Assembly (NCBI RefSeq): GCF_004121075.1
Contig: NZ_RHLN01000014.1
Location: forward strand, 1 to 64,000
Source of the DNA: Lutibacter sp. HS1-25
GTDB taxonomy: Bacteria; Bacteroidota; Bacteroidia; Flavobacteriales; Flavobacteriaceae
Reading direction: 5' to 3'
Length of the DNA: 64,000 nucleotides
Shown here: piece after piece, positions 10,496 through 36,102 of the stretch
Layout: each line of letters opens with the position of its first letter
Position numbering within the stretch: the stretch's first letter is position 1
The notes under the pieces: model-generated
Databases searched by the model: none
Seen by the model: only the letters and a program-made list of their open reading frames with translations
What the model was told of the DNA's origin: nothing
Translations under genes and position numbers: made by a program

Positions 10496-10590
10496 GGGCG
10501 TAACCTTACAGGTCGGGCTTTTCGCTATATCTTTTTTACAATTTCACTGCGTTACATTGTAAAAAAGGATGCCGCTGCAATCCCTTACGC
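10496..10590. repeat. Palindromic dispersed-repeat-like element (attC-like fold)
   Basis: The element is bounded by inverted GCGTAA (10499-10504) and TTACGC (10585-10590). Inside is a perfect 11-bp inverted repeat, ttttttacaat (10532-10542) and attgtaaaaaa (10556-10566), with an imperfect middle part (gtcgggcttttcgctatatc against ggatgccgctgcaatccc). It is clearly richer in GC than its surroundings. I recall similar sequences as repeats in other Flavobacteriia genomes; only one copy is in this window. The overall shape resembles integron attC sites, but no integrase is nearby. Confidence 0.55.
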
Positions 10591-10649
10591 ATCTTTAGTT
10601 TAGACATCTAATCAATGTATAAAACAATAAACGTATATTTTTAAACAAA

Positions 10650-26745: not shown

Positions 26746-27345
26746 TTATTTATGTCTTCCTTGCAAAACAGCTACAATATCTTTTAAAGTATAACCTTTA
26801 GCTTGTAGTAAAATTAAGTAATGAAACAACAAATCTGCTCCTTCATTTAAAAATAACGCTTCATTATCATCTTTTGCTTCAATAACAATTTCAACAGCCT
26901 CTTCACCTACTTTTTGAGCAATTTTATTGATACCTGCTTCAAACAAAGAAGCTACATAACTCTTTTTTGAATTGGCATCTTCTCTCCTACTTTTTATTAC
27001 ATCTTCTAATTCTGATAAAAATCCAAAAGACTGCTCGTTTGTTTCTTCCCAACAAGTATCTGTTCCTTTGTGGCAAGTTGGTCCAACAGGATTTACTTTA
27101 ATCAACAAAGTATCTTGATCACAATCGTTTTTTATAGAAACCAAATTTAAAAAGTTTCCACTTTCTTCACCTTTGGTCCACAATCTGTTTTTTGTTCGAC
27201 TATAAAAAGTCACTTTACCCGTTTCAATAGTTTTGGCATAAGCTTCTTGATTCATATACCCAAGCATTAACACTTTTTTTGTTATTGCATCTTGAATAAT
27301 TGCCGGTACTAAACCATCGTTGTTTTTATTAAAATCTATATTCAT
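26746..27345 (-). CDS. hisI: Bifunctional phosphoribosyl-AMP cyclohydrolase / phosphoribosyl-ATP pyrophosphatase
   Basis: Carries out steps two and three of histidine synthesis. The 199-residue HisIE fusion has the cyclohydrolase part at 1-105 with the zinc/metal site DCDQDTLLIKVNPVGPTCHKG, and the pyrophosphatase part at about 110-199 with EEAVEIVIEAKD and EGADLLFHYLILL. It is the last gene of the his operon. Confidence 0.96.
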   Translation of the reverse strand: MNIDFNKNNDGLVPAIIQDAITKKVLMLGYMNQEAYAKTIETGKVTFYSRTKNRLWTKGEESGNFLNLVSIKNDCDQDTLLIKVNPVGPTCHKGTDTCWEETNEQSFGFLSELEDVIKSRREDANSKKSYVASLFEAGINKIAQKVGEEAVEIVIEAKDDNEALFLNEGADLLFHYLILLQAKGYTLKDIVAVLQGRHK

Positions 27346-27425: not shown

Positions 27426-28181
27426 TTATAATCTTACCGGAATATTATTCCTTTTTAATTCGTTTTTTAAATCTATAATTTCAATTTCTTTAAAATGAAA
27501 AACACTTGCTGCCAAAGCTGCATCGGCTTTTCCTTCAATAAAAGTATCGGTAAAATGTTGCATATTTCCTGCGCCACCCGAAGCAATTATTGGTATATTA
27601 ACCAACTCACTTAAATAAGCCAAGGCTTTATTTGCAAATCCGTTTTTTGTACCATCGTGATCCATTGAGGTAAATAAAATTTCACCTGCCCCACGTTGTT
27701 CAACTTCTTTTGCCCAATCAAATAATTTGATATCTGTTGGCACTTTTCCACCAACCAAATGCACCATCCATTCTCCATTAATCTGTTTGGCATCAATAGC
27801 AACAACCACACACTGACTTCCAAATTTTGCGGCCAAATCGTTGATTAATTGCGGATTTTTTACTGCGGAAGAATTGATTGAAACTTTATCAGCTCCAGAA
27901 TTTAGTAAAATTTCAACATCCTCAACTGATGAAATTCCACCACCAACAGTAAATGGAATATTCACCTTTTCAGCCACGTGCATCACCAGTTCAGCCAACG
28001 TTTTTCTGCGTTGTTCAGTTGCTGTAATATCTAAAAACACCAATTCATCGGCACCTTCATTTGCATAAATTTCAGCCAATTCAACAGGATCACCAGCATC
28101 GCGTAAATCTACAAAATTCACCCCTTTTACAGTTCTTCCGTTTTTAATATCAAGGCAAGGTATTATTCTTTTTGTTAACAT
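27426..28181 (-). CDS. hisF: Imidazole glycerol phosphate synthase, cyclase subunit
   Basis: With HisH it converts PRFAR and glutamine-derived ammonia to imidazole glycerol phosphate and AICAR. The 251-residue TIM barrel starts [20 protein letters not shown] with catalytic Asp11 in the CLDIK motif, and has the second catalytic Asp in [11 protein letters not shown]. Phosphate loops VGGGI and ASGGAG are present. Confidence 0.97.
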
Positions 28182-28259: not shown

Positions 28260-29009
28260 CTAACCTTGTAATATAAATTGTTCTATTTGTTTCATACTAA
28301 TTTTATGCTCGTAAATTGCTTTACCAACAATGGTTCCTTCGCAACCCATTTCAGCCAAACGCGGTAATTCATCGTATGTTGAAATTCCTCCTGAGGCAAT
28401 TAGCTTAATCTTCTCGACTGCGCTCGAACTAACAAAATTGGTTTGATCTAATATTTTTTGATACAAAGCAAAAGACGGACCTTGTAACATACCATCTTTT
28501 GCAATATCGGTACAAATTACGTAGCGCACACCTTCTCTCATATAATTTTGAATAAATGGTATCAATTCCTCTTTACTTTCTTCTAACCAACCACTTACAG
28601 CAACTTTTTCGTCCATTGCATCGGCACCTAAAATAATTTTATTTGCTCCAAATTTTTGCAACCAACTTTTAAATGTATCAGGATTTTTAACAGCGATACT
28701 TCCACCAGTAATTTGATTTGCACCACTTTCAAAAGCAATACGCAAATCGTCATCAGATTTTAATCCACCACCAAAATCAATACTTAAATTTGTGTTTGAA
28801 GCGATACTTTCCAATACTTTATGATTTACAATATGACTTGCTTTTGCACCATCTAAATCTACCAAATGTAAATGTTTTACACCGTGTGCTTCAAACATTT
28901 TAGCTACCTCTAACGGATTTTCGTTATAAATTTTTTGTGTTGCGTAATCGCCTTTTGAAAGACGTACACATTTTCCGTTGATGATATCTATTGCTGGAAT
29001 TATTCTCAT
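28260..29009 (-). CDS. hisA: ProFAR isomerase (phosphoribosylformimino-AICAR-P isomerase)
   Basis: Isomerises ProFAR to PRFAR. The 249-residue TIM barrel begins [22 protein letters not shown] with catalytic Asp8, has [10 protein letters not shown] and [13 protein letters not shown] with the second Asp, and ends in the ASGGIST and VGKAIYE phosphate sites. It is some eight residues longer than usual: the stretch FVSSSAVEK just before IKLIASGG is encoded by a copy of a dispersed repeat (28411-28430) that was taken into the reading frame. The active-site motifs are all intact, so the enzyme is probably functional. Confidence 0.95.
28411..28430. repeat. Dispersed repeat copy inside hisA
   Basis: The plus strand ttctcgactgcgctcgaact has the core of the TTCGACTnCGCTCA repeats seen in the spacers at 16296, 26645 and 33623, but here it sits within the hisA frame and encodes SSSAVE in the loop before beta strand seven or so. 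Confidence 0.65.
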
Positions 29010-29299: not shown

Positions 29300-29331
29300 A
29301 CTTCTAATATCTAATATTGAACTTCTAACTT
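29300..29331. repeat. Repeat forming the hisH 3' end and the edge of the S23 remnant
   Basis: On the minus strand ttagaagttcaatattag is followed at once by atattagaagttcaa. The first copy encodes the last residues of HisH (LEVQY) and its stop; the second joins the S23 remnant. Confidence 0.6.
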
Positions 29332-29904
29332 TAAAAAATTCTCAAGAATTTTAGCTCCTGCTTTGCTGCTTTTTTCGGGGTGAAATTGTACACCGTAAAA
29401 GTTTTTTTCTTGTAAAGCTGAGGCGTATGTAATTCCGTATTGGGTTGTTGCAATAGCTTCATTGTTTAACGAAACATAGTAACTATGCACCAAATACATA
29501 TATTCTTTCTCGTTAATGCCTTCAAAAATAGCTGATTTCAAGTTTTCAATTTGATTCCACCCAATTTGAGGTACTTTTTCAGTAGCATCAAATTTTAACA
29601 CGTCACAATCAAAAATACCCAAACCTTTTGTATCACCTTCTTCACAATACCTGCACATCAATTGCATTCCTAAACAAATTCCTAAAACAGGTTGTTTTAA
29701 TGTTGGAATTACTTTGTCTAATCCGGTTGCTTTTAGCATTTCCATAGCACTGCTTGCTTCACCCACACCTGGAAAAATTACTTTATCGGCATTTCTAATT
29801 TCTTCTTCATCGTGCGATAAAACTGCTTCATAACCCAAACGCTGAATCGCAAATTTGATAGATTGAATATTTCCTGCACCGTAATTTATGATAACTATTT
29901 TCAA
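29311..29904 (-). CDS. hisH: Imidazole glycerol phosphate synthase, glutaminase subunit
   Basis: Class I glutamine amidotransferase that feeds ammonia to HisF. The 197-residue protein starts MKIVIINYGAGNIQSIKFA, has the nucleophile Cys in LGICLGMQLMC (near 80) and the His-Glu pair in GVQFHPEKS near 180. The five C-terminal residues and stop are derived from the spacer repeat, while all catalytic parts precede it. Confidence 0.96.
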   Translation of the reverse strand: MKIVIINYGAGNIQSIKFAIQRLGYEAVLSHDEEEIRNADKVIFPGVGEASSAMEMLKATGLDKVIPTLKQPVLGICLGMQLMCRYCEEGDTKGLGIFDCDVLKFDATEKVPQIGWNQIENLKSAIFEGINEKEYMYLVHSYYVSLNNEAIATTQYGITYASALQEKNFYGVQFHPEKSSKAGAKILENFLKLEVQY

Positions 29905-29981: not shown

Positions 29982-31115
29982 TTATAAAAGTCCTTTTGTA
30001 CTTGGTAAAATCATTTTTTCAGGATCGCGTTTTACAGCAACCTTTATGGCCTTTGCAAATGCTTTAAAAATACCTTCAATTTTATGGTGTTCATTGGTGC
30101 CTTCAGCCTTAATATTAAGGTTACAACGTGCACCATCAGTAAACGATTTAAACAAATGATAAAACATTTCAGTTGGCATTTCACCAATTTTTTCTCGTTT
30201 AAAATCTGCATCCCAAACCAACCAGTTTCTACCACCAAAATCAATAGCTACTTGCGCTAAACAATCGTCCATTGGCAAACAAAAACCATAGCGTTCTATT
30301 CCTAATTTATTTCCTAAAGCCTTTGAAAATACTTCGCCCAAAGCAATCATAGTATCTTCAATAGTATGATGTTCATCTACTTCTAAATCGCCCTGAACCT
30401 GAATTGTTAAGTCCATACTTCCGTGACGCGCAATTTGATCTAGCATATGGTCAAAAAATGCAATTCCTGTTGAAATGTCGCTTTTACCAGTACCATCTAA
30501 ATTTAATTTGATGTAAATTTTTGTTTCGTTGGTATTACGCGTTAATTCAGCAGTACGGTTTTTTAATTTTAAAAACTCGTAAATTTCTTGCCAATCGTTG
30601 CTTTCTAGTGCAATAAATGAATCCAAATCATTTCTTTTTACTGAAATTTCATTGATACCTAAATGGGTATTGTCATTTATAAAAATAGCTTTTGCATCTA
30701 AATTTTTTGCCAATTCAACATCGGTCAAACGATCTCCAATTACAAAAGAATTTTTCAAATCATATGCTTCTGTAAAATATTTGGTTAACAAACCTGTTTT
30801 TGGTTTTCGGGTATTGGCATTTTCGTGTGGAAAAGTTTTGTCAATAAACACATCTTGAAACACAACGCCTTCATTTTCAAAAGTATTCATAATAAAATTA
30901 TGAACAGGCCAAAAAGTATCTTCAGGATACACATCAGTTCCTAAACCATCTTGATTGGTAATCATAGCCAATTCAAAATCCAATTCTTTGGCAATTTTAC
31001 TTAAATAAGTAAATACTTTTGGATAAAAAACCAATTTTTCAAACGAGTCAATTTGCTCATCAGCTGGTTCTTTAATCATCGTTCCGTCACGGTCAATAAA
31101 TAGTACTTTCTTCAT
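29982..31115 (-). CDS. hisB: Bifunctional histidinol-phosphatase / imidazoleglycerol-phosphate dehydratase
   Basis: The 377-residue fusion holds two histidine pathway steps. The N-terminal HAD phosphatase part (about 1-165) begins [11 protein letters not shown] with the nucleophile Asp and has the Cys/His zinc area near 90-105 in reduced form. The dehydratase part (about 190-377) has HHTIEDT and EHHKIEG manganese sites. Its ATG overlaps the hisC stop by one base (TAATG), so translation is likely coupled. Confidence 0.95.
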
Positions 31116-32155
31116 TATTTTGCAATATCTCTTAATGCCTTAATTAACACTTTATTTTCATTTTTAGTACCTACTGTTAACCTCAACGTGTTTTCGCACA
31201 ACGGTTGCGTGGTTCTATTTCTAATCACAATTCCTTTTTCTAACAGCTGATTGTATCTTTTAACAGCATCATCAACCTTTACCAAAATAAAATTTGCATC
31301 AGTTGGGTAAATTTTTTCGATATAAGAAACGGTGTTTAATCTTAACAATAACTTTTTACGTTCTTCTAATAAAATATCAATTTCTTCCTGAACTTTTTGC
31401 TGAGTTAACAAACGTCTTACAGCCTTTTGCTGTGTTAATTCGTTTACGTTATAAGGCGGTTTTATTTTGTTTAAAATTGAAATAATTTCTGTTGAAGCAT
31501 AACAAATACCCAACCTTATACCTGCTAAACCATAAGCTTTAGATAAAGTTTGAGTGATTATTAAATTAGGAAATTCATTCAACCTTTTTAACCAACTTTT
31601 TTTAGATGAAAAATCGATATAAGCCTCATCTATTACTACCAAACCTGGAAATGAACTAAGTAAAACCTCTACAGCTTCATTTGAAAACGAATTCCCCGTT
31701 GGATTGTTTGGAGAGCATAAAAACAAAATTTTTGAATTTTCGTCTATTGCCTTTAAAATTTGAGCAATATTTGGTTCAAAACAAGGCGTTAATTGTACTG
31801 TTCTTTCTTCAACATTATTGATATTTGCCAACACATTATACATCCCGTAGGTTGGCGGTAATGTAATTACATTGTCTTGTTTTGGTTCACAAAAAGCCCT
31901 AAAAATCAAATCCAACACCTCATCACTTCCATTACCTAATAAAATTTGATCTACAGGAACACTTTTTAATTTAGATAATTCTATTTTAACATTTGTTTGT
32001 TGAGGATCTGGATACCTATTTACACCATTTATAAATGGATTTTCATTGGCATCTAAAAAAATCATATCTTTTTTAAACTCCTTATACTCATCTCTTGCCG
32101 ATGAATAAGGTTTTAATTTTTTGATATTATCTCTAACTAATTTTTCAATTTTCAT
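31115..32155 (-). CDS. hisC: Histidinol-phosphate aminotransferase
   Basis: PLP transaminase that makes histidinol phosphate from imidazole acetol phosphate. The 346-residue protein has LDANENP near the start, [16 protein letters not shown] and the PLP lysine in [16 protein letters not shown]. The frame is open to a TTG at 32179, but [11 protein letters not shown] at 32155 is the normal HisC start. It is coupled to hisB by a one-base overlap. Confidence 0.95.
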
Positions 32156-32238
32156 ATTTTCATTTGTTATAGCAAGCAAACTTTATATTTTGTGTAACAA
32201 CTAAATTGCTATTTAGCTTTTGCTTATTAAAATGACAT

Positions 32239-33522
32239 TTATTTTAAACTATTTAAACGCAAAGTTACAGCATTTTTATGAGCATCTAACCCTTCTTCAC
32301 CTGCCAATACTTCAATTGTTTTCCCTATATTTTGAATTCCTTTTTCTGAAATTTTTTGAAATGAAATCGCTTTTAAAAACGAATCTAAATTAACCCCAGA
32401 ATATGCTTTTGTATAGCCATTTGTTGGCAATGTATGATTGGTGCCCGATGCATAATCACCTGCACTTTCAGGTGTATAATCACCTATAAAAACCGAACCC
32501 GCATTTTCAATACCATCAACATAAAAATCGTTTGTTTGAGTACAAACAATAAAATGCTCAGGACCGTACTCGTTAATCATGTTTAAAGCAATTTCTTTAC
32601 TTTCAACATAAATTAATTTTGAATTTTCTATGGCTTTAATTGCTATTTCTTTTCTTGATAAAGCTTGTAATTGAGATTCTATTTCTTGCTCAACCTCAAT
32701 TATTTTTTCTTTTGAAGTTGAAACTAATATCACCTGACTATCGGTTCCGTGTTCAGCCTGACTCAATAAATCGGAAGCTACAAAACTCGCATTGGCACTA
32801 TCATCCGCAACTACCAATAACTCACTTGGACCTGCAGGCATATCAATAGCCACTCCAAATTTGGTTGCCAATTGTTTTGCAACAGTTACAAACTGGTTGC
32901 CTGGTCCAAATATTTTATAAACCTGCGGAATACTTTCCGTTCCAAAAGTCATTGCTGCAATAGCCTGAATACCACCTACTTTTAAAATTTTAGTAACACC
33001 ACATTGTTGTGCAGCATAAATAATTGCTGGGTGAATTTTACCTTGTTTATTTGGTGGTGATGCCAATAAAATTTCTTTACAACCTGCAATATTAGCAGGT
33101 GTTGCCAACATTAACACCGTTGAAAAAAGTGGTGCCGTTCCTCCTGGAATATACAAACCAACTTTTTGAATTGGTCTTTTTTCTTGCCAACAAGCAACAC
33201 CTTCAGTAGTTTCAATAGCTACTTTTGCTGTTTTTTGAGCTGCGTGAAATGCTGTTATATTTGTTTTTGCAACACAAATAGCCTCTTTCAGTTCATCAGA
33301 AACCAATTGTTCTGCTTCTATTATTTCTTCAGCTGAAACAAATAAATCTTCCAATTCAACTTTATCAAACATCGTAGTATATTGCCTTACAGCTTTATCT
33401 CCGTTTTGTTTAACATCGTTAAAAATTGCAATTACCTTTTCTTCAATAGCTTCAACAGTTTGAGTTGATCTTTCTAACAACTTTAACCATTCACTTTTTG
33501 GCGGATTTATTACTTTTTTCAT
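32239..33522 (-). CDS. hisD: Histidinol dehydrogenase
   Basis: Performs the last two oxidations of histidine synthesis with NAD+ and zinc. The 427-residue protein has GLYIPGGTAPLFSTVLM, the family signature region KIFGPGNQFVTVAKQ followed by IDMPAGPSELLVVADDSAN, and the zinc ligand GTNHTLPT. Length is standard. It lies second in the operon after hisG. Confidence 0.96.
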   Translation of the reverse strand: MKKVINPPKSEWLKLLERSTQTVEAIEEKVIAIFNDVKQNGDKAVRQYTTMFDKVELEDLFVSAEEIIEAEQLVSDELKEAICVAKTNITAFHAAQKTAKVAIETTEGVACWQEKRPIQKVGLYIPGGTAPLFSTVLMLATPANIAGCKEILLASPPNKQGKIHPAIIYAAQQCGVTKILKVGGIQAIAAMTFGTESIPQVYKIFGPGNQFVTVAKQLATKFGVAIDMPAGPSELLVVADDSANASFVASDLLSQAEHGTDSQVILVSTSKEKIIEVEQEIESQLQALSRKEIAIKAIENSKLIYVESKEIALNMINEYGPEHFIVCTQTNDFYVDGIENAGSVFIGDYTPESAGDYASGTNHTLPTNGYTKAYSGVNLDSFLKAISFQKISEKGIQNIGKTIEVLAGEEGLDAHKNAVTLRLNSLK

Positions 33523-33718: not shown

Positions 33719-34576
33719 TTATAATACCATTTTTTCAATAGGCACAACCAACAAACCTTCAGCACCATTTTCTTTTAGCTGGTCTACAACTTCCCAAAAA
33801 GAGTCTTTATCAACAACGGTGTGTATAGAGCTCCAACCTGCTTCTGCCAAAGGCACTACAGTAGGACTTCTCATTCCTGGCAATATTTTTATAATGCTTT
33901 CAACTTTGTCGTTTGGCGCATTCATCAAAACATATTTTGATTTTCTTCCCTTTAAAACAGATTGAATTCTAAATAGTAATTTATTTAGTATTTGTTGATT
34001 TTCTTCAGAAATGTTTGGTGAAACAGCTAAAACAGCTTCACTAGTTAACATTTTTTCAACTTCTTTTAAATTGTTTTTAAACAAAGTACTACCACTCGAA
34101 ACAATATCACAAATAGCATCGGCCAAACCAATACTTGGCGCAATTTCAACAGAACCATTGATTAGGTGAATATCTGGCGTAACATCAAACTTTTTAAAAT
34201 AAGCTTTTACAGTATTTGGATAAGATGTTGCAATACGCATACCATCTAAATCTTTAATTCCTTTGTATTTTACACCTTTTGGAACAGCTATTGAAACTCT
34301 ACATTTTGAAAAACCTAAACGCTCAGCAATAATGATATCATCTCCTTTTTCAATCAATACATTTTCGCCAATAATAGCAATATCAACTACGCCATCTCTT
34401 AAATACTGAGGAATATCTCCGTTTCGTAAATACAAAACTTCCATAGGAAAGTTACTTGCTGAAGCTTTTAATTGGTCTTTTCCATTGTCGATTGAAATAC
34501 CACATTCTTTTAATAACTGAAGAGAATCTTCATTCAATCTACCTGCTTTTTGAACTGCAATTTTAATTTTGTTCAT
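33719..34576 (-). CDS. hisG: ATP phosphoribosyltransferase (long form)
   Basis: First and committed enzyme of histidine synthesis, joining ATP and PRPP. The 285-residue length is that of the long, histidine-inhibited HisG: the catalytic part (about 1-210) has GDIPQYLRDGVVDIAIIGEN, RIATSYPNT and the PRPP loop IVSSGSTLFKNNL, and a C-terminal regulatory domain (about 212-285, with MRSPTVVPLAEAGW) follows. So the pathway is likely controlled both by feedback and by the attenuator upstream. Confidence 0.96.
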   Translation of the reverse strand: MNKIKIAVQKAGRLNEDSLQLLKECGISIDNGKDQLKASASNFPMEVLYLRNGDIPQYLRDGVVDIAIIGENVLIEKGDDIIIAERLGFSKCRVSIAVPKGVKYKGIKDLDGMRIATSYPNTVKAYFKKFDVTPDIHLINGSVEIAPSIGLADAICDIVSSGSTLFKNNLKEVEKMLTSEAVLAVSPNISEENQQILNKLLFRIQSVLKGRKSKYVLMNAPNDKVESIIKILPGMRSPTVVPLAEAGWSSIHTVVDKDSFWEVVDQLKENGAEGLLVVPIEKMVL

Positions 34577-34629
34577 TCTTTTTGTTTTTATGTTTGAGTA
34601 TTCAACATTTTTTAAGGTATATAAATAAC

Positions 34630-34660
34630 AAACCCGCTTGAATTACTCAAACGGGTTTAT
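34630..34660 (-). promoter_or_regulatory. his attenuator terminator hairpin
   Basis: Minus strand: aaacccgtttga (arm 1) pairs with tcaagcgggttt (arm 2) around a 5-base loop. It lies between the His leader peptide and hisG. Arm 2's 7-base core TCAAGCG (34635-34641) is repeated exactly at 34697-34703 within the leader, where it can pair instead with arm 1 and so prevent the terminator. Confidence 0.8.
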
Positions 34661-34690
34661 AAATATATTTTGAATTTATTCAATACATTT

Positions 34691-34747
34691 TTAGCTCGCT
34701 TGATTGCCAGTATAAAAATGATGATGATGTAATTGAATAAAATTCAT
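34691..34747 (-). CDS. hisL: his operon leader peptide
   Basis: An 18-residue ORF, MNFIQLHHHHFYTGNQAS, with four consecutive CAT His codons (34718-34729). It lies 21 bases downstream of a perfect -7 box and upstream of a terminator hairpin and hisG, the classic layout of ribosome-mediated attenuation. When charged tRNA-His is scarce the ribosome would stall on the His run, leaving the TCAAGCG segment 14 bases further on free to pair with terminator arm 1. The reading is direct from the sequence; the mechanism is inferred. Confidence 0.85.
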   Translation of the reverse strand: MNFIQLHHHHFYTGNQAS

Positions 34748-34768
34748 TGTTTTTATTATTTTAAAGCA

Positions 34769-34776
34769 CAAATATA
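34769..34776 (-). promoter_or_regulatory. -7 box (TATATTTG) of the his operon
   Basis: Exact consensus, 21 bases before the leader peptide ATG. It would start transcription of leader and the eight his genes. Confidence 0.7.
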
Positions 34777-34869
34777 AATAAATGTTGAAAACATGTAAAG
34801 ATTAAAATTAAAAAATTTACACATATTATTAAATCGTTAATTAATTAACATTAAAAATTATTATTTTTT

Positions 34870-36102
34870 TTAAAAAGCATACATAAAACCAAAACTTAAA
34901 CGCATCGCATCTCTATTTTGATAATCATCTATAAATTGATTATTTACACTTCCGTCAAAAGAAAGTTTTTTATTTCCATAGTCTACTTCTACTCCAATAG
35001 TCATTCTTTCTATAGGATCATACATTAAATTTACAATTCCGTAATAGTGATAGTTTTCAACATTACCATTAATTAAAAATTCTGAAAAATCATTACTTTC
35101 TGAAAAAATTATACGATTTACATTGTCTAATTTAAAATTTGTATACCCTAACACAAAAGTGCTATGTATTTTTGGTGTATAAAATAATTCATACGATGCC
35201 CACCCTCCAAAAGCAGGAGTTGCATTTAATTGATTGTTAATATTTGGATAACCATCATAACCATACCCCTGAACACTTGTAATATATGCTGAAACACCTT
35301 TCCCTCCTGTTAATTGAAATTGAAAATTATTCAAATTATGTAAATAAATACCTGACAATGAAAATCCATACCCAATAAAATTATTTTGATGATCGTCATA
35401 TATATAGTTCACATTTCTTAAAATTGACGAAAACCTAAGATGTCCCCAATTGTTTTCATATTTTAAAGCAGCACTAAAATCGGGTGTTGTTTGATAGGCT
35501 TCTTCAAGCAATGGTTCAATTTCTCCATATTTTTCATAATCTATAATGGGTGCATTAAAAGACAATACATATTTCCAATTTTTATTTCTAAACGAATTAA
35601 AATAACTCAACTGAGGTGCTCTTACCCAAATTCCAGAAGGTGGACCTTCCCATTCCATAATATTTGGCCAAAGTTCATCATCACCATATTGAACCCAAGA
35701 TTGTCCAATTAACCAATGGTCAGTGGCCACATAAGCTTTTCTTAATCTCATTTTACCATTTCCTCCCCAAAAATCAAATTCAACAACACCATTTACTTGC
35801 TTTCCTTTTTTGGTCATAACCAAAGACTCAAACTTTATTTGAGTTTGGTATAAATCTACCTTAAAACTCCCCGAATCATCGGTTCCAAAAACGTTGATAT
35901 TGCCTACATTAAAAGTTTCACTGTCTTGCAAACCTCCAAAAAAATCAAAATAACCGTTCATTTTTAAACTTACGCCTATACTTCCTTTTACTTTAGATTG
36001 CCCATTTATACTGTCTTTTGAAGCATAATTTATAAACTTTTCTTGTGAAAAACTTATCGCACAAAAAATAAAACCCATAAAAATTGTAAGTGTTTTTTTC
36101 AT
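34870..36102 (-). CDS. DcaP-like outer membrane porin
   Basis: A 410-residue outer membrane protein with signal peptide (1-19, ending SFSQE), beta-strand pattern throughout and a C-terminal aromatic residue (FGFMYAF). The segment QTQIKFESLVMTKKGKQV, GQSWVQYGDDELWPN and the fold resemble the DcaP family of trimeric porins for small organic acids. The match is moderate and no substrate can be named. It lies upstream of the his promoter on the same strand with no clear terminator between. Confidence 0.7.
   Translation of the reverse strand: MKKTLTIFMGFIFCAISFSQEKFINYASKDSINGQSKVKGSIGVSLKMNGYFDFFGGLQDSETFNVGNINVFGTDDSGSFKVDLYQTQIKFESLVMTKKGKQVNGVVEFDFWGGNGKMRLRKAYVATDHWLIGQSWVQYGDDELWPNIMEWEGPPSGIWVRAPQLSYFNSFRNKNWKYVLSFNAPIIDYEKYGEIEPLLEEAYQTTPDFSAALKYENNWGHLRFSSILRNVNYIYDDHQNNFIGYGFSLSGIYLHNLNNFQFQLTGGKGVSAYITSVQGYGYDGYPNINNQLNATPAFGGWASYELFYTPKIHSTFVLGYTNFKLDNVNRIIFSESNDFSEFLINGNVENYHYYGIVNLMYDPIERMTIGVEVDYGNKKLSFDGSVNNQFIDDYQNRDAMRLSFGFMYAF

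Follow-up and report, generated by a model that had tools for sequence, protein, structure and literature searches.

A probable histidine-sensing transcription attenuator and an additional conserved pairing element upstream of hisG in Lutibacter sp. HS1-25 and its family

The window, a stretch of 64,000 nucleotides from Lutibacter sp. HS1-25 (contig NZ_RHLN01000014.1), carries a his operon on its minus strand. The genes of the operon were assigned by the cut-offs of curated NCBIfam models and, together with the gene on the other side of the leader, are located as follows.

34870-36102, minus strand: gene upstream of the leader, in the same direction as hisG
33719..34576, minus strand: hisG, first gene of the operon (TIGR00070, 184.7 bits, cut-off 75.75)
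32239..33522, minus strand: hisD (TIGR00069, above cut-off)
31115..32179, minus strand: hisC ORF, start putative (TIGR01141, above cut-off for 31118-32149)
29982..31115, minus strand: hisB, bifunctional (NF003937, above cut-off)
29311..29904, minus strand: hisH (TIGR01855, above cut-off)
28260..29009, minus strand: hisA (TIGR00007, above cut-off)
27426..28181, minus strand: hisF (TIGR00735, above cut-off)
26746..27345, minus strand: hisIE (NF002747, above cut-off)

The leader precedes hisG, and its coordinates were read directly on the minus strand of the window.

34769..34776, minus strand: TAnnTTTG −7 box TATATTTG, a putative promoter by consensus match only (direct reading)
34691..34747, minus strand: leader peptide ORF MNFIQLHHHHFYTGNQAS plus stop codon, ATG at 34747 (direct reading)
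34727..34738, minus strand: segment 1 ATTCAATTACAT, partner of segment 2 in the protector hairpin
34718..34729, minus strand: four consecutive CAT (His) codons, the regulatory codons (direct reading; alignment A1)
34697..34703, minus strand: TCAAGCG, the antiterminator arm and terminator mimic, on the final leader codons
34678..34688, minus strand: segment 2 ATGTATTGAAT, which pairs with segment 1 in the protector hairpin (folds)
34647..34657, minus strand: terminator 5′ arm AACCCGTTTGA, with the proximal arm CGTTTGA at 34653-34647
34631..34641, minus strand: terminator 3′ arm TCAAGCGGGTT; an imperfect T-tract runs on from it to about 34622
34592..34603, minus strand: element 5 GAATACTCAAAC, complementary to 34652-34641 (terminator loop with the apical half of the 5′ arm)

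The mimic (34703-34697) is identical to 34641-34635 in the terminator. A sequence-only reading of the window had already placed the −7 box, the ORF with its four CAT codons, both TCAAGCG copies, the proximal arm and the hisG ATG at 34576, all of them correctly on rereading. The −7 box fits the TAnnTTTG promoter consensus given in PMC9723704 and recurs 16-21 nt 5′ of the leader ATG in 22 of 24 close Bacteroidota relatives; a scan of 34000-35500 for sigma-70-like sites found 10 against 10.9 in shuffles. The leader ATG has no Shine-Dalgarno-like sequence and carries an A at −3, a positive determinant reported for F. johnsoniae (PMC6847099). The terminator, whose T-tract is imperfect (TTTGTTATTT), was also found independently by a scan, as one of two terminator-like sites in 34000-35500 (shuffles 0.4 ± 0.6). 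At this locus, then, a short leader ORF carries consecutive codons for the amino acid that the operon produces and, judged by sequence and structure, an intrinsic terminator separates that ORF from the first structural gene.

No Rfam family fell within the his leader at gathering scores in a scan of the whole window, and a permissive scan of 34500-34850 (E ≤ 5) returned just four unrelated sub-threshold matches. Neither scan matched His_leader (the proteobacterial hisL model), the T-box covariance model or Bacteroid-trp (RF01692). Elsewhere in the window, a Flavo-1 RNA (RF01705) scores 57.2 bits at 10507-10605 on the minus strand.

A HisG search gave 28 loci, 24 from Bacteroidota (12 of them named Lutibacter) and 4 from other phyla. 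At every Bacteroidota locus (24/24) a leader ORF in which His codons cluster lies about 140-180 nt 5′ of hisG, and 23 of the 24 ORFs have at least two adjacent His codons, the exception (L024) reading H-R-H-F-H; the same search found no such leader at the 4 loci from other phyla. For the phylum as a whole, 158 genomes were drawn, hisG was present at E ≤ 1e-30 in 113, and 450 nt upstream were taken for 100 of the 112 hisG genomes besides the window, the 12 omitted all having a distant HisG; being anchored on hisG, this survey is less biased than a covariance-model search. An ORF of at most 45 residues with at least 3 His within 7 residues occurs in 74 of 101 regions (window included), compared with 4 of 101 antisense regions and 79 of 2020 shuffles, and because these controls also give matches some of the 74 may be chance matches, with G072 doubtful. 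All 74 belong to the 82 genomes with HisG at E ≤ 1e-68, and none to the 19 with a more distant HisG. Within this sample the window's own family has a His-run leader in 16/16 genomes, window included. A second sample took nearly one genome per genus of that family, with hisG present in 81 of 90 and 79 new ones fetched: a strict His-run leader is present in 77 of these 79 further genera and on the antisense strand in none of the 79, and the two misses (G219, G172) contain, by eye, His-containing ORFs below the criterion. Since the leader is kept in 16/16 and 77/79 samples of the family, a chance origin is excluded, and the conservation of the His codons in relatives, on which the sequence-only reading had staked its case, is borne out.

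Leaders of other families have features of their own. In family f21 (for example L095, L101, L102, L088) a His-rich leader is present in 19/19 genomes, 14 of them with a GTG start that in most lies a few nucleotides past a −7-like box, and the leader mRNA is possibly leaderless. The hairpin search found no f21 terminator at or below −9 kcal, and the 95 nt 5′ of hisG have a mean C minus G of 14.3 (1.06, s.d. 7.1, in 153 control regions), which together suggest Rho-dependent attenuation in that family. Family f14 (for example L069, L070, L073) has a His leader and a terminator, and many of its hisG genes have, by eye, an AAAGGAG-like Shine-Dalgarno sequence; in f3 (for example L071, L076, L077) His leaders are present in 5/5 and the hairpin search found weak terminators or none.

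Alignment A1 comprises the window and the 24 Bacteroidota loci (25 leaders). In it the mimic and the terminator 5′ arm pair in 96% of cells, compared with 25-56% for slid versions; column shuffles average 93.2% and 1 of 500 reaches as high. Changes on both sides are seen in 2 of 7 mimic-terminator pairs, matched by 54 of 500 shuffles. The two terminator arms pair in 95.6% of cells and the protector hairpin of segments 1 and 2 in 74.8% (31-43% when slid, 42.6% at most), with protector covariation no better than in shuffles. At L016-L018 the aligned pairing is one base out of register, and by eye the mimic TCGGG of these leaders fits their own terminator arm CCTGA, which is a different one. Across families, terminator and mimic both differ: CCCGTTTGA is found with TCAAGCG in f1, GGCTTACC with GGTAAGC in f4 (G033), CTTGCC with GGCAG in f8 (G049) and CCCCGGC with GCCGG in f14 (G070).

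We exchanged terminators between families for the 44 leaders with a hairpin at or below −9 kcal. Own pairings averaged −14.0 kcal and swapped ones −8.4 kcal, and none of 20000 random assignments of terminator family did as well over nine families. Taken singly, 28 of the 44 leaders fall in the best tenth in both directions. The window leader is not among them, its own pairing (−8.6 kcal) being matched by 21% and 50% of swapped pairings; against shuffles its mimic pairing stands out (2.5%). The mimic test is weak when it takes in every phylum leader that has a hairpin candidate of any kind, 72 in all (31/72 at p ≤ 0.05), a figure that predates the setting apart of families without a good terminator. 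Across the set of leaders an antiterminator that excludes the terminator is kept by compensatory change; for the window leader taken by itself, the swap test does not decide the matter. The repeated TCAAGCG noticed in the window thus proved both conserved and compensated, in the 25-leader pairing and in the nine-family exchange.

Folding with the ribosome at different positions gave three states for the window. In the ribosome-free fold the region of segments 1 and 2 is paired and the terminator is made; with a ribosome on the last His codon and the RNA extending to the terminator loop, the fold is that of the antiterminator (−11.1 kcal), segment 2 joining its inner helix once segment 1 is covered; with the ribosome at the stop codon, the terminator is unobstructed. 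Over the 25 leaders, at least 4 pairs between the terminator 5′ arm and the stop-codon segment form in 25 with a stalled ribosome, in 0 with a ribosome at the stop and in 3 that are ribosome-free; at least 5 form in 25/25 when stalled, compared with 32% when the intervening stretch is shuffled. In the family sample the antiterminator appears in 65/69 stalled leaders, in 0 at the stop, in 23 with no ribosome and in 33% of shuffles. Four of these 69 leaders fail the stalled-ribosome fold; 8 of 77 family leaders have no terminator by the search pattern, and two regions are without a strict leader. With no ribosome the antiterminator is absent from 22/25 close leaders and 46/69 family leaders, and covariation in the protector is weak. 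In silico, then, it is ribosome position that decides between the hairpins, and the switch that the sequence-only reading expected from folding the leader appears (25/25 stalled, 0/25 at stop).

In 59/65 family leaders the run's last His codon is followed after 14 nt by the mimic, a fold cut 12 nt past the run having left shorter spacings unable to appear; in 60/65 the mimic starts 13 nt before the stop codon ends. Going by ribosome footprint sizes, a ribosome whose A site holds that last His codon should end just short of the mimic and leave it free, and one at the stop codon should cover it. The earlier attenuator reading is supported with one correction, namely that the antiterminator arm sits on the last codons of the leader, so that a terminating ribosome would cover it. 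As the antiterminator (−9.6 to −11.1 kcal) is weaker at equilibrium than the terminator (−15.6 kcal), the switch must be kinetic and act through co-transcriptional folding.

Further leaders are present in the same genome. Upstream of a trpE-like gene (L131, G000:C137, about 4860; the genome's best TIGR00564 match at 413 bits, below the cut-off of 517.7) are a leader MKNNKLNINWWWNSLTN (WWW) and a terminator, with a mimic GCGAGA immediately 3′ of the stop codon. A prephenate dehydratase gene (PF00800; pheA-like) has a leader MKTINTYNSFYFYFYFSNKR (FYFYFYF) and a terminator at L002:1574-1706 (G000:C159); its mimic GAGGCTTT begins within the stop codon, and the leader would sense Phe, perhaps Tyr. 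Both fold into the antiterminator when stalled and not at the stop, the pheA-like switch holding when the ribosome stalls midway through the FYF run and not when it stalls on the last Phe. An aspartate kinase gene, presumably thrA (an open frame of 827 codons; L135, G000:C5), is preceded by a leader VKKTSVYKLLQNAILLHNLTIVTTTTTTTTL with, by eye, no clear terminator downstream, and inspection of ilvD in the same genome found no cognate leader or terminator. The cognate leaders at the trpE-like, pheA-like and aspartate kinase genes make the his switch one of a set.

We conclude that the leader is very probably a ribosome-mediated transcription attenuator that senses charged His-tRNA and controls hisG-D-C-B-H-A-F-IE, through steps of leader translation, stalling, termination and read-through that we infer to run as follows. 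When His-tRNA is scarce, a ribosome would stall on the CAT run, covering segment 1 and halting short of the mimic, which begins 14 nt past the last His codon; the free mimic would then pair with the terminator 5′ arm, segment 2 would supply the inner helix, and RNA polymerase would read through. When His-tRNA is plentiful, the ribosome would reach the stop codon and mask the mimic, and the terminator would form. If no ribosome is present, segments 1 and 2 would pair, with the terminator as the default in most close leaders.

Because the gene at 34870-36102 is codirectional, a terminator after it would be ordinary, and the hairpin is indeed strong at equilibrium; the leader could then be a fixed, constitutive terminator of that gene beside a chance His-rich ORF, with no switch at all. 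This is highly improbable, given that a −7 box and the leader ORF separate the gene from the hairpin and that the ORF is kept in 77/79 further genera, with last codons that co-vary with the terminator. Control might instead be translational or linked to Rho, leader translation mattering and intrinsic termination not being the main output, as one could suppose from f21, where the 19/19 His-rich leaders have no terminator at or below −9 kcal found downstream and a C-rich, G-poor stretch precedes hisG, or from element 5, which in the window's family adjoins the hisG start. A strong terminator is nevertheless present in the window and its family, with the mimic as the alternative partner of its 5′ arm, and we consider such control improbable, if slightly less so than a fixed terminator.

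T-boxes account for some structured leaders of amino-acid genes in other phyla, and here too a sensor other than the ribosome (a T-box, or a histidine-binding RNA or protein) might work the hairpins, the ORF being incidental. Against it stand the Rfam result, with no family at gathering score in the leader and only the four unrelated sub-threshold matches, and the fact that the amino acid of the ORF suits the gene at his, trpE-like, pheA-like and aspartate kinase loci of this one genome; we give this reading the least weight of all.

Element 5, a fifth segment between the terminator and the hisG start, is apparently new, and we know of no counterpart in textbook attenuators. In the window it makes 9 Watson-Crick pairs in a row, lies 16-27 nt 5′ of the hisG ATG and has a complementarity that 0 of 300 shuffles match. 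Tested against dinucleotide shuffles in a first sample (the window, the 24 named loci and 20 from f1, f2 and f32), it is present at p ≤ 0.05 in 34/40, the remaining 5 of 45 being without a pattern terminator. A second sample of family genera gave 46 of 67 testable at p ≤ 0.05 and 42 at p ≤ 0.01, after exclusion of 4 gaps that were too short and 8 leaders without a pattern terminator. When 12-mers of the leader were scanned against the same region in the 67 genera, mean z was −3.15 at the element-5 partner segment (45/67) and −2.28 at an overlapping segment 6 nt on (38/67), compared with −0.86 to 0.36 elsewhere in the leader; the reversed segment, a control for composition, gave z −0.60, with 13/67 at p ≤ 0.05 against 3 expected. 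Loop positions pair at 4.59/5 with a leader's own element 5 and at 3.03/5 when it is swapped between species with different loops.

Deviations in element 5 favour changes compatible with G-U pairing. In the second sample, transitions opposite G/T, which make G-U, number 48/299 and those opposite A/C 2/146 (Fisher 3e-7, uncorrected for relatedness), and in the first sample 24/213 and 2/105 (Fisher 0.004). The transition-to-transversion ratio alone does not differ in the first sample (p 0.39), and a Watson-Crick-only register there has a modest G-U excess, with 30 G-U and 30 other mismatches opposite G/T (2547 and 6317 in shuffles). In 30/46, element 5 has its 3′ end 14-17 nt 5′ of the hisG ATG. 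It was not found in the sampled leaders of f4, f5, f8, f14, f22 and f27, apart from a borderline case in G085 (p 0.013); in G033 the gap is too short for the test. Within f32 it is present in G152 and not in G156 and G148.

A stable simple hairpin between element 5 and the terminator arm was rejected: nested folds favour the terminator, with a pairing probability of at least 0.79 in 33/34 (exception L019), and giving up the terminator 3′ arm costs a median of 12.3 kcal in the family sample, so that such a hairpin would be short-lived. If the lower stem is kept in a pseudoknot, a crude sum of lower stem and element-5 duplex, which leaves out loop geometry, comes to about the stability of the terminator. 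This sum lies below the terminator hairpin in 30/46 leaders with element 5 and 0/21 without it; as duplex energy was what defined the two groups, part of that separation follows from the choice. Taken together, the element-5 results lead us to call the pairing real, with high confidence.

The best of several guesses is a pseudoknot that damps hisG translation. Set out in full, though we think it rather unlikely in this form, element 5 would provide a second output by invading the terminator loop and apical 5′ arm on read-through RNA, the pseudoknot would damp hisG translation, and the antiterminator would prevent this during starvation. Were that true, transcription and translation would both be under a single RNA arm, which would stop the leak that an imperfect terminator allows. 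Action in trans of the terminated leader RNA on element 5, of the kind known for S. meliloti rnTrpL, was ranked below the cis pseudoknot because the same hairpin would have to open and the cis copy would compete. A DNA operator as the source of the inverted repeat was ranked low because the deviations favour G-U compatible changes.

The his leader resembles hisL of Escherichia coli and Salmonella in its run of His codons, its protector, antiterminator and terminator and its position upstream of hisG; it differs in having four consecutive His codons where hisL has seven in a row, in giving no Rfam match, in carrying the antiterminator arm on the last leader codons and in the extra element 5. 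The Bacteroid-trp motif, interpreted as a Trp leader at tryptophan genes, has no match in the window. It is likewise a candidate cis-regulatory RNA of Bacteroidetes (RF01692, PMC2864571). For the same gene in the same family, PMC9723704 lists a structured element 5′ of hisG in Flavobacterium psychrophilum that is conserved in Flavobacteriaceae; we found there, for hisG, no leader peptide sequence, no mimic or pairing, no wider distribution and no element 5. In view of that listing, the earlier remark that such control is much less described in Bacteroidota is overstated. We found no published anatomy.

Leader peptides with His codons are reported at hisZ/hisS* of bacilli, other genes in another phylum, in a survey of premature terminators whose authors in 2010 knew no leader-peptide system outside Proteobacteria and Actinobacteria (PMC2965389). 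In an account of the his genes of the superphylum (PMC8305728), the word 'leader' is absent from the main text and 'attenuat' occurs once, for S. enterica and E. coli. Small ORFs reminiscent of leader peptides are described in B. thetaiotaomicron (PMC7366714), and Bacteroidota may be covered by a 2010 survey of Lopatovskaya et al., cited in PMC4833913. A literature search covering mainly openly accessible journals found no published account of the mimic, the distribution or element 5.

The kind of attenuator is known, and its hisG member here had, as far as could be seen, not been dissected before. Element 5 adds a strongly conserved RNA part to the attenuator design. Classic attenuation requires a ribosome close behind RNA polymerase. 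For a phylum described as being without Shine-Dalgarno sequences (PMC6847099), a conserved and compensated His attenuator in nearly all sampled genera of one of its families is comparative evidence that ribosome and polymerase are coupled tightly enough there, and it offers a ready reporter for measuring that coupling.
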